A DNA stretch of 64,000 nt from NCBI GenBank assembly GCA_021108395.1, contig JAIOQZ010000029.1, positions 1-64,000 of the forward strand, read 5' to 3'. Each line of letters starts with the position of its first letter. The first letter of the stretch is position 1. This document shows positions 2,983 through 62,220 of this stretch, piece by piece. A program made the position numbers and the translations under genes. Source of the stretch: Candidatus Cloacimonadota bacterium. Its GTDB lineage: Bacteria; Cloacimonadota; Cloacimonadia; Cloacimonadales; JAIOQZ01. Below the pieces are notes generated by a model, which saw only the letters and a list, made by a program, of their open reading frames with translations, had not been told where the DNA came from and made no database searches.

Positions 2983-3483
2983 ATGAGACGAGCAATCTAT
3001 CCCGGAACATTCGATCCGATTACCAACGGACACCTGGACATCCTGCGCAAAGCCACCGGAATTTTCGAGGAGGTCGTGCTGGCCGTGGCAAACGTGACCG
3101 GCAAAAGCACCTTTTTCAGCTTTGACGAACGCGTGGACATCTGCCGTCGCTGCTGCGAAGGCATACCCAATGTGCGCGTCGAGGGCTTTGACAGTTTGGT
3201 GGTCGATTTTGCCCGCAAGATTGGGGCTGTCACAATGATTCGCGGCCTGCGGGCAGTGTCCGACTTCGAGTACGAGCTGCAGCTCGCCCTGATGAATCGC
3301 ATGCTCGACCGCGGCCTCGAAACCATCTTCCTCGTTCCCGACCACAACTACCTCTACCTCAGCTCGAGCATGGTGCGACAGATTGTGCGACTGGGCGGCA
3401 GCCTGGACGATTTCGTGCCAAAGCTGGTTGAGGAACGACTACATAAACAGTTCCAGGTTGTTGACAAACCTGTTTCAGTATGA
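2983..3483 (+). CDS. coaD: Phosphopantetheine adenylyltransferase
   Basis: 166 aa, the usual CoaD length. It transfers AMP from ATP to 4'-phosphopantetheine to make dephospho-CoA, the penultimate step of coenzyme A synthesis. The N-terminal nucleotidyltransferase signature YPGTFDPITNGHLDI (T/HxGH motif) is present, followed by the RGLRAVSDFEYELQLALMNR substrate-binding helix and the C-terminal SSSMVRQIVRLGG segment that stands for the ISSTxVR motif. The ATG start lies 7 bp after the aminopeptidase stop, so it is probably in the same operon. Confidence 0.96.
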   Translation: MRRAIYPGTFDPITNGHLDILRKATGIFEEVVLAVANVTGKSTFFSFDERVDICRRCCEGIPNVRVEGFDSLVVDFARKIGAVTMIRGLRAVSDFEYELQLALMNRMLDRGLETIFLVPDHNYLYLSSSMVRQIVRLGGSLDDFVPKLVEERLHKQFQVVDKPVSV

Positions 3484-3708
3484 TATTTCTCATGGCAATC
3501 GCTATTTGCCAACATGTGAATTGGAAGAAACCGGTCAGAGCATCTCTTGCCAAACTTCGGGATTCAGCGTATTGTAATACGCATTCACTCTCAGTTATGA
3601 CAAGAGCTATCTCTGATTTGCTTTTCATAAAGCAAACACAAAACCAGATTGCTGACTTTGTCAACAATCTGCGACTGCATCGACAATTTGCCTTACAAGG
3701 AGAAAATA
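3484..3708 (+). other. Gene-free A+T-richer leader before DUF3467 gene
   Basis: 225 bp with lower G+C than the flanking genes. It probably holds the promoter of the small downstream gene; TTGCCA near 3548 followed 17 bp later by TATTGT is one possible but weak sigma-70 match. An 82-codon frame starts at the coaD stop and crosses this region, but it runs into the next gene in another frame and has no ribosome site, so I do not call it. No hairpin followed by a T-run was seen after coaD. Confidence 0.3.
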
Positions 3709-4011
3709 ATGGAAAAGAAGAAGCTTAACGTTAAGATCGACGAGAAGGTGGGCGAGGGAACCTACTCGAATATGTGCATGGTAACCTTCTCTCTCAGTGA
3801 GTTCATCCTCGACTTTGGCCGCTTTCTGCCTGGCCTGCCCGACGCTCGCATTCTCAGTCGCGTCGTCACCTCGCCCCAGCATGCCAAGAATATCATGCGC
3901 ACATTACAGGCGAACATCGAGAAGTTCGAGAAGCAGCATGGCGAGATTAAGCTGCCCGGCAGCCCCGATGACCGCGAAATAGGCTTCAAGAGCACCGGAC
4001 AAAATCCTTGA
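3709..4011 (+). CDS. DUF3467 family small protein
   Basis: 100 aa protein of the DUF3467 family, a small conserved bacterial and archaeal family without an assigned function. The start at 3709 was chosen because AAGGAG lies about 5 bases upstream and the family normally begins with a short lysine-rich stretch (MEKKKLNVKID), then the Y-S-N strand (GTYSNMCMVTFSLSEFILDFGRFLPG), the RVVTSPQHAKNIMRTLQANI helix, and a helix ending near the C-terminus. No membrane segment or signal peptide. It sits alone between coaD and secDF; nothing in the context gives a function. Confidence 0.8.
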   Translation: MEKKKLNVKIDEKVGEGTYSNMCMVTFSLSEFILDFGRFLPGLPDARILSRVVTSPQHAKNIMRTLQANIEKFEKQHGEIKLPGSPDDREIGFKSTGQNP

Positions 4012-4159
4012 CGCGCCGGGCAACCTGAGCTTTTTGGTAATCTTGCACTTGAGACGTCGCTTTGCTTATGCAAAGGCAGTGGCGTTCGAGTGTTGCCATA
4101 ACAGACATCAACGTTGCAAAAACACAATGAAACGTGAAGAATCATAATAAGAGGTAGTG

Positions 4160-6980: not shown

Positions 6981-7197
6981 AAGATGGGGCTTCACCCCCA
7001 CCCCCACTCGCTTTTTGAAAAAAGTGAGACCAAAAACTTCTGCGGATACTTCGTATCCTACGTATAATAAATTTCCCTGTACACCAGGATGCGCAGCATC
7101 AAGTCACATAGTGAAACGAAGTGACCTTTTAGAGAAGTTTTTGATTCCACTTTTTACAAAAAGTGGATGGGGTGTCAGGGGCAACGCCCCTGTCTTA
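6981..7197. repeat. Intergenic inverted-end repeat element, copy A
   Basis: About 217 bp between the convergent secF and J/ParA genes. From the outside inward, each end has a G-run/C-run hairpin (GGGGC..CCCC on the left, CAGGGGCAACGCCCCTG on the right), an A/T hairpin (CGCTTTTTGAAAAAAGTG; CCACTTTTTACAAAAAGTGG), then a CAAAAACTT box. The middle carries short palindromes such as GGATACTTCGTATCC. The right end supplies the TAA stop of the minus-strand gene. Similar elements lie near 12.6, 55.6, 60.4 and 62.1 kb. No coding potential was recognised. Confidence 0.85.
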
Positions 7198-8430
7198 TAG
7201 TCGGCGCCCCTGCACGTTACCCAGCAGCAACCGGGCCAGATTGCGCAGGCTGACTGCCAGTTCGCCCTGGGGGTCACGGGCAACGGCGGGCACAAGCTCG
7301 CGAGCGCTTATCTCAATCTTCTCGGACGGGACGATATTGCCCAGATACTCGACATCGATGTCTAATGTCTTGCGGCTCACATCCTGGATGCGCCTGGCAA
7401 TCTGCATTGCGGCGGCGCTGCTGCCGGCGCGGTTGACCACCAACCCCAACCTGAACTCCTCGATGACGCTGTTGATAAGCGGCAGGTGATGAATCATGCG
7501 CTGTTTCACGCGTTGGCGAAGCTGGTCGATGTTCTTCACTCGGCCGCCGCTTTCGTCCATAGTGGCCTCCTGCAGCAGGTTGTGCAAAGCGCTGTCCTTT
7601 TGCGCCGCCAGGCCGAATTCCTGGCCATAGACGCGCTGTAGCCGACGGAACAGCGAGACCTTGATGAAGTTGTAGGCGTCGAGGTAGGAGGCGGGGTCGG
7701 GCGTGGTGACGACGATTTTACGGTCGGCGGAGAGAAAAAAGTCTATCATGTTGTAGGAGGTGTCGCCGCCCAGGTCGATGATCATCACGTCGGCGTCGAA
7801 CTCACGCAGAGCGCGCATGAGTTTCATCTTGCGCTGAAAGGGGATGTTGGCGCTGCCAAGCTCACTGCTGCCTCCACCGATGAGCGCAGGGCCGTACCTG
7901 GTCTCGATAGCGATGTCGGCGAGGTCGTTCACATGGCGTTGCAAGTACTCATTCACGTTGGTTCGCGGGAAGGTTTCGCCGAGATAGAGGTGGAGATTGG
8001 AGCCGCCCAGGTCGAGGTCAACAGCGGCGACGCGCAAGCCCTGCATGGACAGCACAACGGCGAGGTTGGCCGTCAGGATGCTCTTGCCGATGCCGCCTTT
8101 GGCTCCGCCGATGGCAATGAGCGTTCGCGGTAGCCTGACCGTTGCAGCGTTCGACAGCGCCTCACTTTCCATCACGCGGGTGAGCAGGTCAAAGGCTCTG
8201 TGCACGGCGTGAAACTGCTCTTCGCGGCGTTTCTGCTCGTGTGGGGCTGCGCCACCGTTATGGTCGGGATGATACCGCTTCGCCTGGCTACGATAGGCCT
8301 GCTTCACAGACTCCATCGACAATCCGCGCAGAAAGCTGTCCTCGCCCGCCGATTCACGTCCGAAAAGCCACGCACACGCCTGACGCACCCGGCGTTCCTG
8401 TTCGTGACTGAGCATATCTATATCGAGCAT
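7195..8430 (-). CDS. J-domain / ParA-MinD ATPase fusion protein
   Basis: 411 aa. Residues about 1-90 form a J domain with the diagnostic HPD tripeptide at 54-56 (KRYHPDHNGG), which in other proteins stimulates Hsp70 ATPase activity. Residues about 100-400 form a ParA/MinD/FleN-type ATPase: deviant Walker A AKGGIGKS with signature Lys111 and Lys117, switch VDLDLGGSNLHLYLG, and a Walker B-like MIIDLGGDTSYN. Such ATPases position cell structures (flagella, chromosomes, carboxysomes). The fusion could recruit DnaK to that process, which is inference. The gene stands alone, convergent with secF and divergent from ligA. Its TAA stop lies in the edge of repeat copy A. No flagellar or partition partner gene is in the window. 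Confidence 0.88.
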   Translation of the reverse strand: MLDIDMLSHEQERRVRQACAWLFGRESAGEDSFLRGLSMESVKQAYRSQAKRYHPDHNGGAAPHEQKRREEQFHAVHRAFDLLTRVMESEALSNAATVRLPRTLIAIGGAKGGIGKSILTANLAVVLSMQGLRVAAVDLDLGGSNLHLYLGETFPRTNVNEYLQRHVNDLADIAIETRYGPALIGGGSSELGSANIPFQRKMKLMRALREFDADVMIIDLGGDTSYNMIDFFLSADRKIVVTTPDPASYLDAYNFIKVSLFRRLQRVYGQEFGLAAQKDSALHNLLQEATMDESGGRVKNIDQLRQRVKQRMIHHLPLINSVIEEFRLGLVVNRAGSSAAAMQIARRIQDVSRKTLDIDVEYLGNIVPSEKIEISARELVPAVARDPQGELAVSLRNLARLLLGNVQGRRL

Positions 8431-11982: not shown

Positions 11983-12567
11983 ATGCTTCACAAGCTGCTT
12001 GGCGACCACAAGCTCGTCCTCGCTTCAGCCTCGCCCCGACGCAAGGTCATCTTTGACATGCTCGGGCTGAAATACCTAGTGCGTCCCGCTCACATCGACG
12101 AAATCGTCCACACTCACATGCCCAGCCGGTTGGTGCTGTCTCACGCCGCAGACAAGGCCGCCGCCGTTGCCGCAGACATGGACCCCGACTGCATAGTCGT
12201 GGCCGCCGACACAATTGTGTATGAGCAGCGCGAAGTGATAGGCAAGCCCACCAGCGAGTCCGAGGCCGCGGCGCTGCTGCGGCGGCTGTCGGACAACACG
12301 CATGTGGTCTATACCGGTGTGTGCGTACGCCGCGGGCCAGTGGAATCCGTCGGCTTCGAGCGCACGAGGGTGACGTTCAAGCAGTTGAGCGAGCAGGAAA
12401 TCGCCGACTACATCGCCACCGGCGAACCGATGGACAAAGCAGGGGCATACGGCATTCAGGGCTATGGCAGCCAGTTCGTCACCAAGCTCAACGGCTGCTA
12501 CTTCAACGTCATGGGCTTCCCGGTGAATCTCTTCTATCGGCTAGTAATACAGGGGTTTTACCCCTGA
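11983..12567 (+). CDS. maf: Maf-family nucleoside triphosphate pyrophosphatase
   Basis: 194 aa. Maf proteins hydrolyse non-canonical or modified nucleoside triphosphates (dTTP/UTP or m7GTP classes) to monophosphates. Signatures: KLVLASASPRRKVIFDMLG at the N-terminus, VVAADTIVYEQREVIGKP with the catalytic Asp in the centre, and GEPMDKAGAYGIQGYGSQFV. The last five residues (QGFYP) and the TGA stop are read from the CAGGGGTTTTACCCCTGA hairpin at the left end of repeat copy B, so the natural C-terminus appears to have been replaced or extended by the element. ATG lies 13 bp after the permease stop. Confidence 0.93.
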   Translation: MLHKLLGDHKLVLASASPRRKVIFDMLGLKYLVRPAHIDEIVHTHMPSRLVLSHAADKAAAVAADMDPDCIVVAADTIVYEQREVIGKPTSESEAAALLRRLSDNTHVVYTGVCVRRGPVESVGFERTRVTFKQLSEQEIADYIATGEPMDKAGAYGIQGYGSQFVTKLNGCYFNVMGFPVNLFYRLVIQGFYP

Positions 12568-12720
12568 ACCCCACCAGACTTTTTGAAAAAAGTTTGGATC
12601 AAAAACTTCTCTAAAAGGGTCACTCCGCTACGCTTCGTGACATAGCTACATGACTGGAATCTTCGTTTCCTGCGTACAGTAAAAAAATATCTTGTAGATA
12701 GGATGCGTTAGCATCCGCCA
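12550..12720. repeat. Intergenic inverted-end repeat element, copy B (incomplete right end)
   Basis: Begins with the CAGGGGTTTTACCCCTG hairpin inside the last codons of maf, then ACCCCACC, the A/T hairpin GACTTTTTGAAAAAAGTTTGGATC, an AAAAACTTCT box, a GTCAC..GTGAC stem, and GGATGCGTTAGCATCC. The expected right-hand copy of the A/T and G/C hairpins is missing; after CCAAGAGTTTTGGG the sequence passes into a different folded region. It is therefore a truncated or diverged member of the family seen at 7.1, 55.6, 60.4 and 62.1 kb. Confidence 0.75.
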
Positions 12721-55534: not shown

Positions 55535-55740
55535 AAGATGGGGCGTTGCCCCCACCCCCATCCACTTTTTGTAAAAAGTGGAATCAAAAACTTTTGCGGA
55601 AACTACGTTTCCTGTGTACAATATATTACAAGCAATAGTTATTCTTATGGCACAAGGATGCGTTAGCATCCGCCAGAAGTTTTTGATCCAAACTTTTTAC
55701 AAAAAGTTTGGTGGGGTTCAGGGGTAAAACCCCTGTCTTA
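55535..55740. repeat. Intergenic inverted-end repeat element, copy C
   Basis: About 206 bp and the most symmetrical copy. Left end TTAAGATGGGG, CCACTTTTTGTAAAAAGTGG, then ATCAAAAACTTTTGCGGAAAC; right end, read on the other strand, TTAAGACAGGGG, CCAAACTTTTTGTAAAAAGTTTGG, ATCAAAAACTTCTGGCGGATGC. The core has GGATGCGTTAGCATCC and A/T-rich filler. The right end provides the TAA stop of argF. It lies between argF and the GGDEF-like gene. Confidence 0.9.
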
Positions 55741-60215: not shown

Positions 60216-60556
60216 GAACAGGGGCGCTGCCCCTGAACCCCGCAAACTTTTTGCAAAAAGTTTGGATCAAAAACTTTTGTGGATGTCGTCATGTAGCGAA
60301 GCGGAGTGACTCCCCCTTACGCATCCTTGTGTTCATACCCCCCTGTCAAGGGGGGAAGACCCGTACTCGGGTCAGGGGGGGGTATGAAAATCAGAAATAG
60401 TATGAGGAAAGTAATACCCCCCTGTTTCGCTTCGCTCAACTGCCCCCCCTTGACAGGGGGGTGAAATCAGGATACGAAGTATCCGTCAAAACTTTTTGAT
60501 TTTACCTTTTTCTCGAAAAAGGTAAGCGGGGTGTCAGGGGCCGCGCCCCTGTCTTA
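60213..60556. repeat. Intergenic inverted-end repeat element, copy D, with inserted segment
   Basis: About 344 bp between the convergent trxA and YigZ-family genes. Ends as in the other copies: TAAGAACAGGGGCG, GCAAACTTTTTGCAAAAAGTTTG, GGATCAAAAACTTTTG on the left; AAAACTTTTTGATTTTACC, CTTTTTCTCGAAAAAGG, GGGGCCGCGCCCCTGTCTTA on the right. Between them lies an extra block with two 19-bp inverted copies (ACCCCCCTGTCAAGGGGGG at 60337-60355 and its complement at 60444-60462) absent from the other copies. The right end gives the stop of the YigZ-family gene. Confidence 0.85.
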
Positions 60557-61983: not shown

Positions 61984-62220
61984 AAGAAGGGGCTTTGCCC
62001 CAACCCTATATAAGGCTCACTCCGCTATAGAAAGCTCACTACGCTGCGCTACGCGACAACCCAAACTTTTTGAAGAAAGTTTTGATCAAAAAACCTTTGC
62101 GGAAACTTCGTTTCCTATGTACAAAATATCGTTTGAACAAGGATGCGCAGCATCCGCCAAAAGTTTTTGATTCCACTTTTTACAAAAAGTGGACGGGGGT
62201 CGGGGCAGCGCCCCATCTTA
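61984..62220. repeat. Intergenic inverted-end repeat element, copy E
   Basis: About 237 bp between cheW and ksgA. Left end AAGAAGGGGCTTTGCCCC and AAACTTTTTGAAGAAAGTTTTGATC; right end TTTTTGATTCCACTTTTTACAAAAAGTGG and GGGGCAGCGCCCCATCTTA. The core has CACTCCGCTATAG and ACTACGCTGCGCTACGCG stretches, then GGAAACTTCGTTTCC and GGATGCGCAGCATCC. Same plan as copies A to D. Confidence 0.88.

Follow-up and report, generated by a model that had tools for sequence, protein, structure and literature searches.

A J domain fused to a MinD/FlhG-type ATPase in a Candidatus Cloacimonadota bacterium and its protein family

Introduction

J domains normally recruit the chaperone DnaK. Class C J-domain proteins, exemplified by the HscB, DjlA and auxilin type, combine an HPD-bearing J domain with an unrelated domain that confers specificity; HscB, itself a J protein, acts in iron-sulfur assembly. 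FlhG and FleN are MinD-like ATPases of flagellar number control, and in FlhG a helix placed before the P-loop, with the motif DQAxxLR, activates the GTPase FlhF. A J protein working with such a system has been described in Vibrio: by the account of one review, SflA is a J-domain regulator acting with the FlhF/FlhG system, a membrane protein with a TPR-like periplasmic domain, found in Vibrio only (PMC7226244).

The protein described here, J-MinD, gives FlhG/FleN as its best sequence and fold match and shares their deviant Walker lysines, but it differs from them by a J domain as front end, about 60 extra residues, the lack of an flhF neighbor and the presence of a separate FlhF-FlhG pair in the same genome. 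With class C proteins it shares the HPD and the linkage of a J domain to an unrelated domain for specificity, which in this case is a MinD-type NTPase. SflA, as presented in that review (PMC7226244), is likewise a J protein tied to a MinD-type positioning ATPase system and was counted as a precedent, whereas it is a separate protein not fused to the ATPase. Among the matches listed in a search of PMC titles and abstracts, neither a J-MinD or J-ParA fusion nor a J/HTH_25 partner of a MinD-like ATPase was found; the catalogue of prokaryotic J-protein domains of Barriot et al. 2020, as cited in PMC8215388, may list the architecture.

Gene and domain organization

The J-MinD gene lies in the window, the whole stretch of 64,000 nucleotides that was analyzed, as a single uninterrupted open reading frame of 411 codons with an ATG start. 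The reading frame and its two-domain layout, which a preliminary description had proposed, were borne out by Pfam (DnaJ followed by CbiA/ParA) and by 22 orthologues of the same layout, 35-48% identical to the window protein. The features assigned were:

7195..8430, (-) strand: J-MinD fusion protein gene, 411 aa (open reading frame; Pfam DnaJ, CbiA and ParA above cut-off)
8146..8406, (-) strand: J domain, about residues 9-95, with helix I 9-23, helix II 39-53, HPD and helix III 63-95 (AlphaFold2 models; Pfam DnaJ 37-84)
8263..8271, (-) strand: HPD motif, residues 54-56 (motif conservation in relatives)
7207..8124, (-) strand: MinD/FlhG-type ATPase domain, about residues 103-408 (FleN Z 30.4, 244 residues, rmsd 1.9)
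8077..8109, (-) strand: deviant Walker A, residues 108-118 (GGAKGGIGKSI), signature Lys K111 and Walker Lys K116 (conservation)
7456..7653, (-) strand: probable helical insertion relative to FlhG/FleN, about residues 260-325, limits approximate (model helices)

On the left, the gene is adjoined by secF, followed by secD and a cytidylyltransferase-type (coaD-like) gene; on the right, it is adjoined by ligA, and LptF/LptG and Maf genes lie beyond. Directly at the gene, between its 3' end and secF, lies an intergenic repeat (6990-7194) that is about 205 bases long, has inverted segments at its ends and is dispersed in the genome. Other copies in the window are found at 12549-12641, 55535-55737, 60218-60553 and 62066-62214, and the repeat gives 73 match pieces across the whole genome.

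The J domain

Pfam DnaJ matched residues 37-84 with 33.0 bits against a cut-off of 27.8, the match spanning only positions 12-54 of the 63 in the profile. Helix I is divergent and the loop to helix II is longer than usual, also in comparison with DnaJ. Since the Pfam match is partial and helix I divergent, the "full" J domain of the preliminary description rests on AlphaFold2 models, while its HPD at 54-56 is directly seen. Models of 23 family members reached a mean pLDDT of 86, and residues 1-98 modelled alone gave helices at 9-23, 39-53 and 63-96 with the HPD in a turn. The linker is short, with helix III ending at residue 95 and the first ATPase strand starting at 103 in the model.

A fold search with the J domain alone returned the J-like Tim16 (Z 8.0, 65 aligned, rmsd 2.2) and the Plasmodium J domain PFA0660w (Z 7.0, 68 aligned, rmsd 3.5), both among unrelated helical proteins. 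Foldseek gave nothing below E 0.001 for this part; the three top rows, with E values of 0.2 to 0.4, were J domains, one of them (the third) part of a chimera. In the aligned family, Pfam DnaJ matched 22 of the 23 members at E<=0.01. H54 and P55 are present in all 23 and D56 in 22, the window protein included, and helix II is basic, with K/R at position 43 in 21/23, at 47 in 22/23 and at 51 in 21/23. By its sequence, the N-terminal region is thus a J domain, an assignment that rests mainly on Pfam and the HPD because the structure search of this part was only supportive.

The ATPase domain

Pfam CbiA (from residue 105, 56.9 bits) and ParA (from residue 103, 49.7 bits) were both above cut-off. 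Among the best 25 of 45 NCBIfam models, none reached its curated cut-off, minD_bact scoring 40 of the 213 bits needed and minD_arch 64 of 202. The nearest solved structures by sequence were FlhG (4rz2, E 7e-19) and then FleN. In the fold comparison of the ATPase part, FleN came first (5j1j, Z 30.4, 244 aligned, rmsd 1.9), followed by FlhG, MinD and Soj, all with Z over 22. Model residues 100-407 align to FleN 8-255; about 60 residues are extra relative to FlhG/FleN, probably near 260-325, where the AlphaFold2 model has helices at 280-291 and 301-325, the basis for the insertion.

The signature lysine K111, whose conservation the preliminary description had proposed to check, is kept in 23/23 aligned members, as are D138, D140 and D219; K116 is kept in 22/23, with Arg in L059. 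The ATPase retains the motifs of the MinD-type sandwich dimer. When the C-terminal membrane-targeting helix of MinD was looked for, most members were found to stop soon after the last core helix. The deviant-Walker ATPase of the ParA/MinD positioning class stood as described, with KGGIGK and the signature lysine, and its placement was refined: J-MinD is a MinD-type deviant-Walker ATPase, nearest to FlhG/FleN within the MinD group. The FlhF-activating N-terminal helix of FlhG (DQAxxLR) is missing from J-MinD, and the J domain stands in its place. Nor does the gene lie beside flhF, its adjoining genes being secF and ligA. The window genome has its own flhA-flhF-flhG run on contig C5 (L159:2106-6585, named by eye), so that J-MinD is additional to FlhG.

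Family distribution and phylogeny

A scan of GTDB species genomes with this ATPase gave at least 80 loci. An N-terminal J-type domain was present in 25 of the first 30 (L033-L062), in which the HPx lies 51-58 residues before the P-loop of J-bearing proteins, and 71 in L059. Altogether, 32 further proteins, all from other assemblies, show the two-domain layout of the window protein. When 395 genomes were drawn evenly from the phylum of L041 (Desulfatibacillum, Desulfobacterota), 16 matched at E<=1e-80, eight of them already in the family set, and 15 of the 16 matches begin in the J domain.

A tree was built from the ATPase only (70 rows, 328 columns; root not inferred), with row counts inflated by near-copies such as L059 with L146-L149. 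The 33 J-bearing proteins and five J-less orthologues form one clade with support 100/99, whose members are nearly all Desulfobacterota or records named Deltaproteobacteria. The architecture is therefore that of a real family. The preliminary description knew of only scattered J-ParA fusions, whereas those found here belong to a single family, in searches seeded with this ATPase that independent J-ParA fusions of other families could escape.

The J labels need three changes on the tree, most simply read as one gain and two losses of the J domain in the J-MinD clade. J-less orthologues had been named beforehand as evidence against the fusion; they amount to 5 of the 38 clade members (L055-L058, L062) and retain the P-loop and switch motifs. 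The HPD is intact in 29/33 J rows, so its expected conservation held for the most part, while the D is replaced in four: L054 (HPE), L144 (HPA) and L060 and L061 (HPK). The last two are the rows nearest to the J-less L062, and in this single case HPD decay looks to have preceded J loss. In general, the J-less members and the D-less rows look like secondary losses. The pairing of J domain and ATPase is beyond chance, with layout and HPD kept across orthologues, and since it was kept through the evolution of the family, the fusion is unlikely to be accidental and J-MinD is probably a dedicated adaptor for the chaperone.

No neighbor is conserved across the J-MinD loci; the genes nearby are housekeeping or unrelated and shared mainly between close relatives, and therefore no client is indicated. 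An MlaE/MlaF-like transporter pair, recognized by eye, occurs about 1.5-4 kb from J-MinD in L044, L048, L049 and L054; L036 has one MlaE/MlaF-like gene and L058 an ABC gene, and in no case does such a gene adjoin J-MinD. As the widest-shared neighbors, the pair was considered as a clue to the client and set aside, being too common to weigh.

Several variants of the family were also observed. A Desulfobacca genome that has the fusion also encodes a detached J-only protein of 114 aa with HPD (L151:6620-6964, (-) strand), which matches the fused J domain in type and lies between nitrilase-like and moaA-like genes (by eye). In L033, the J-MinD gene is preceded by a J-less paralogue in the same orientation (3109-4122, (+) strand), about 450 bases away; the genome concerned (G124) holds three family members with long matches. 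Among J-less members, one carries an N-terminal GYF_2 domain (L063:1134-2417) and another a long C-terminal part with TPR repeats by eye (L066:3334-5592). Protein-binding modules seem to have accumulated in this subfamily.

Origin of the window copy

The window protein falls inside the J clade, and the smallest supported set that holds it comprises 30 rows (100/99). In its own phylum of 124 genomes, 70 of them >=90% complete, it is the sole match at E<=1e-22; among the 58 genomes of its order, its own included, the next best match (E 1e-20) covers the ATPase core only. This phylum differs from that of L041, which has more than 395 genomes. The contig is sound, since secF beside the J-MinD gene matches same-order genomes at up to 66%. 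The simplest reading is that the window copy was probably acquired laterally, the donor being of the Desulfobacterota type. Base composition does not flag the gene as foreign, with a GC of 60.3% against 58.3% for the window and a GC3 of 76% against 69-83% for five neighbors; being so close to its surroundings, the acquisition was probably not recent. For an empty-site comparison, 21 genomes including that of the window were examined; 20 had secF, in every case adjoined by secD. A clean empty site was not found, because the gene after secF varies, and both ligA and J-MinD are absent from the flanks (about 1.5 kb) of the 19 other secF loci.

J-like partner genes of J-less relatives

Fifty loci of J-less relatives (L063-L112), chosen without regard to J domains or fusion, were searched with a J-like profile. 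A partner gene was present in 20 of them, always directly downstream of the ATPase and in its orientation; in the 738 kb of these loci, no other ORF of >=60 codons matched at E<=1e-3. Thirteen further loci, of which 12 surround J-less paralogues from clade genomes and one belongs to a J-less relative, gave two more partners (L157, L170) in the same position and orientation. In the remaining 30/50 and 11/13 loci, no partner was found in the DNA at hand, where some contigs end nearby. As controls, 29 MinD/FlhG-type loci with flanks of only about 1.5 kb gave none, and 42 J-MinD-clade loci, five overlapping others, gave one ordinary unlinked HPD-bearing J protein 8 kb away in L055.

Several of the 20 partner loci come from close relatives (Bacteriovoracaceae), and the others include Myxococcota, Nitrospinota, Zetaproteobacteria, Aminicenantes and records named Deltaproteobacteria. 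On the ATPase tree, a single change among the 32 J-less rows accounts for the 13 that have a partner. HTH_25 and DnaJ are both matched at E<=0.01 by all 14 partners that were aligned, the DnaJ score of at least one (L064) staying under the Pfam cut-off, while the two Aminicenantes partners and that of L170 are by appearance J-like alone. The HPD is missing in 22/22 partners, its position reading, for example, SGD, SND, QPD, APD or GPN.

The partners share with the fused J domain the J-type fold and the gene link to the same ATPase subfamily, and differ from it as separate genes without HPD, usually with HTH_25. Profile comparison between the two J types was weak (E 0.0023, probability 13%) and revealed no special kinship; since they are not close, no claim is made that one became the other. 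In the window genome, there was no match to the J/HTH_25 profile at E<=1e-8, and among 39 genomes a full-length match was found only in G124. Taking the J-like genes beside J-less relatives together with the fused J domain, one ATPase subfamily is, as judged from gene content, linked to J-type domains twice: in cis, with a potentially working HPD, and in trans, without HPD.

Other genes were seen by eye near J-less members. Soj-type ParA genes, at 4442-6000 in L157 (there with a ParB gene) and at 8660-9709 in L158, lie at most a few kb from the J-less paralogues of these two related genomes. In four Nitrospirae loci (L082, L090, L092, L103), an actin-like and a FeoB-like gene are nearby. Since some of these strains are magnetotactic, a magnetosome link was considered, but the literature checked for MinD, ParA and Mad27 gave nothing on it.

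Discussion

J-MinD is proposed to be a specialized class C J-domain protein in which the MinD/FlhG-type ATPase acts as specificity module and the J domain loads DnaK on its partner, a reading to which we give an even chance. We counted for it the HPD kept in 29/33 J rows, the basic helix II, the conserved ATPase positions, the single clade, the J-type genes beside J-less relatives and the single clear DnaK of the window genome, which adjoins DnaJ. A second Hsp70 match (41 bits, profile 135-346) looks like an MreB-type actin, and the Pfam J family gives two matches at E<=0.001 in this genome, DnaJ and J-MinD. As most lineages have kept the J domain, with its HPD intact and its helix II basic, it most likely engages this DnaK.

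For J-MinD, we infer DnaK binding, dimerization, a client and the order of the steps as follows. Like its relatives, the ATPase would be a monomer or form a sandwich dimer depending on ATP, and would bind a partner or site in one nucleotide state. The J domain, standing before the P-loop in the position of the FlhF-activating helix of FlhG, would activate DnaK, which would be loaded onto whatever the ATP-bound dimer holds or onto the complex of the dimer, and would then remodel or release that client or complex. The J domain is absent in 5/38 clade members and reads HPE, HPA or HPK in 4/33 J rows; therefore, DnaK recruitment is not indispensable to the ATPase. Also weighing against the proposal are the loci of J-less relatives in which no partner was found (30/50 and 11/13), the lack of a conserved neighbor that would point to a client and the absence of a Foldseek match below E 0.001 for the J domain.

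A broader reading, offered tentatively and with clearly less confidence, extends this partnership to the MinD-type subfamily in general. There would be an unrecognized J partnership of two forms: in trans, the partner would be a J-like protein without HPD that usually carries HTH_25; in cis, it would be a potentially functional J domain, the ATP dimer switch gating DnaK. As part of the same tentative reading, the trans form would belong to Myxococcota, Bdellovibrionota, Nitrospinota, Zetaproteobacteria and others, and the cis form mainly to a Desulfobacterota clade, from which it also spread laterally. The system would then be a nucleotide- or spatially controlled Hsp70 recruiter, the FlhG trick of an N-terminal segment activating another NTPase being turned on DnaK.

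Since the partners lack the HPD in 22/22 cases, the J fold may also act as a binding module without DnaK, and J-type domains may be plain binding modules in this subfamily. Applied to J-MinD, the J domain would serve in protein binding or dimerization, with the HPD kept by history. The partners fit this explanation by having retained their position beside the ATPase gene without HPD, as do the two J losses in the simplest reading of the tree, but the HPD stayed intact in 29/33 J rows although the J region diverged to 21-35% identity to that of the window protein, and we regard this explanation as unlikely.

Slightly less probable again is the idea of the preliminary description that the ATPase is itself the target of DnaK, which the J domain would recruit to dismantle a J-MinD dimer, filament, or membrane or partner complex and so reset the switch. 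The J domain in cis and the short linker (95 to 103) would suit such an action, whereas polymerization is not indicated by any result and the J-less orthologues retain the P-loop and switch motifs without J. The present data are compatible both with this explanation and with loading of DnaK onto a client.

It is very improbable that J-MinD is a ParA for partition of a plasmid, phage or chromosome, with an incidental J domain. The superfamily is the same, and two J-less paralogues lie near Soj-type ParA genes (L157 with a ParB gene, L158). However, no match covering 80% of the query was present in 72,556 plasmid records, no relative was found in viral contigs by exact 8-mers, an insensitive search, and secF and ligA, not parB, stand beside the window gene, so that this candidate was rejected.

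An Mrp/ApbC-type iron-sulfur carrier with its own HscB-like J domain, for which the 37 bits of the NCBIfam ApbC and MrpORP models and the analogy with HscB could be cited, is hardly credible: those scores are far under the curated cut-offs, and the classical ligand set is refuted, since the single cysteine (C19, in the J domain) leaves no CxxC. Equally hard to credit, and rejected, is an assembly or annotation artefact, for although the draft genome consists of 62 contigs and the gene is absent from the near relatives searched, the reading frame is intact, the layout recurs in the 32 proteins from other assemblies and the flanking secF matches genomes of the order.

If J-MinD does load DnaK onto the partner of its ATPase, an Hsp70 system would be steered by the nucleotide switch of a cell-positioning class, a form of control that was not met in the literature among the matches listed. 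The pair of J-less ATPase and J-like partner is also present in a Myxococcus species (L096), making its study possible in a genus with good genetics. The same reading, if true, would also help to place SflA, the J protein acting with FlhF/FlhG in Vibrio, in context.
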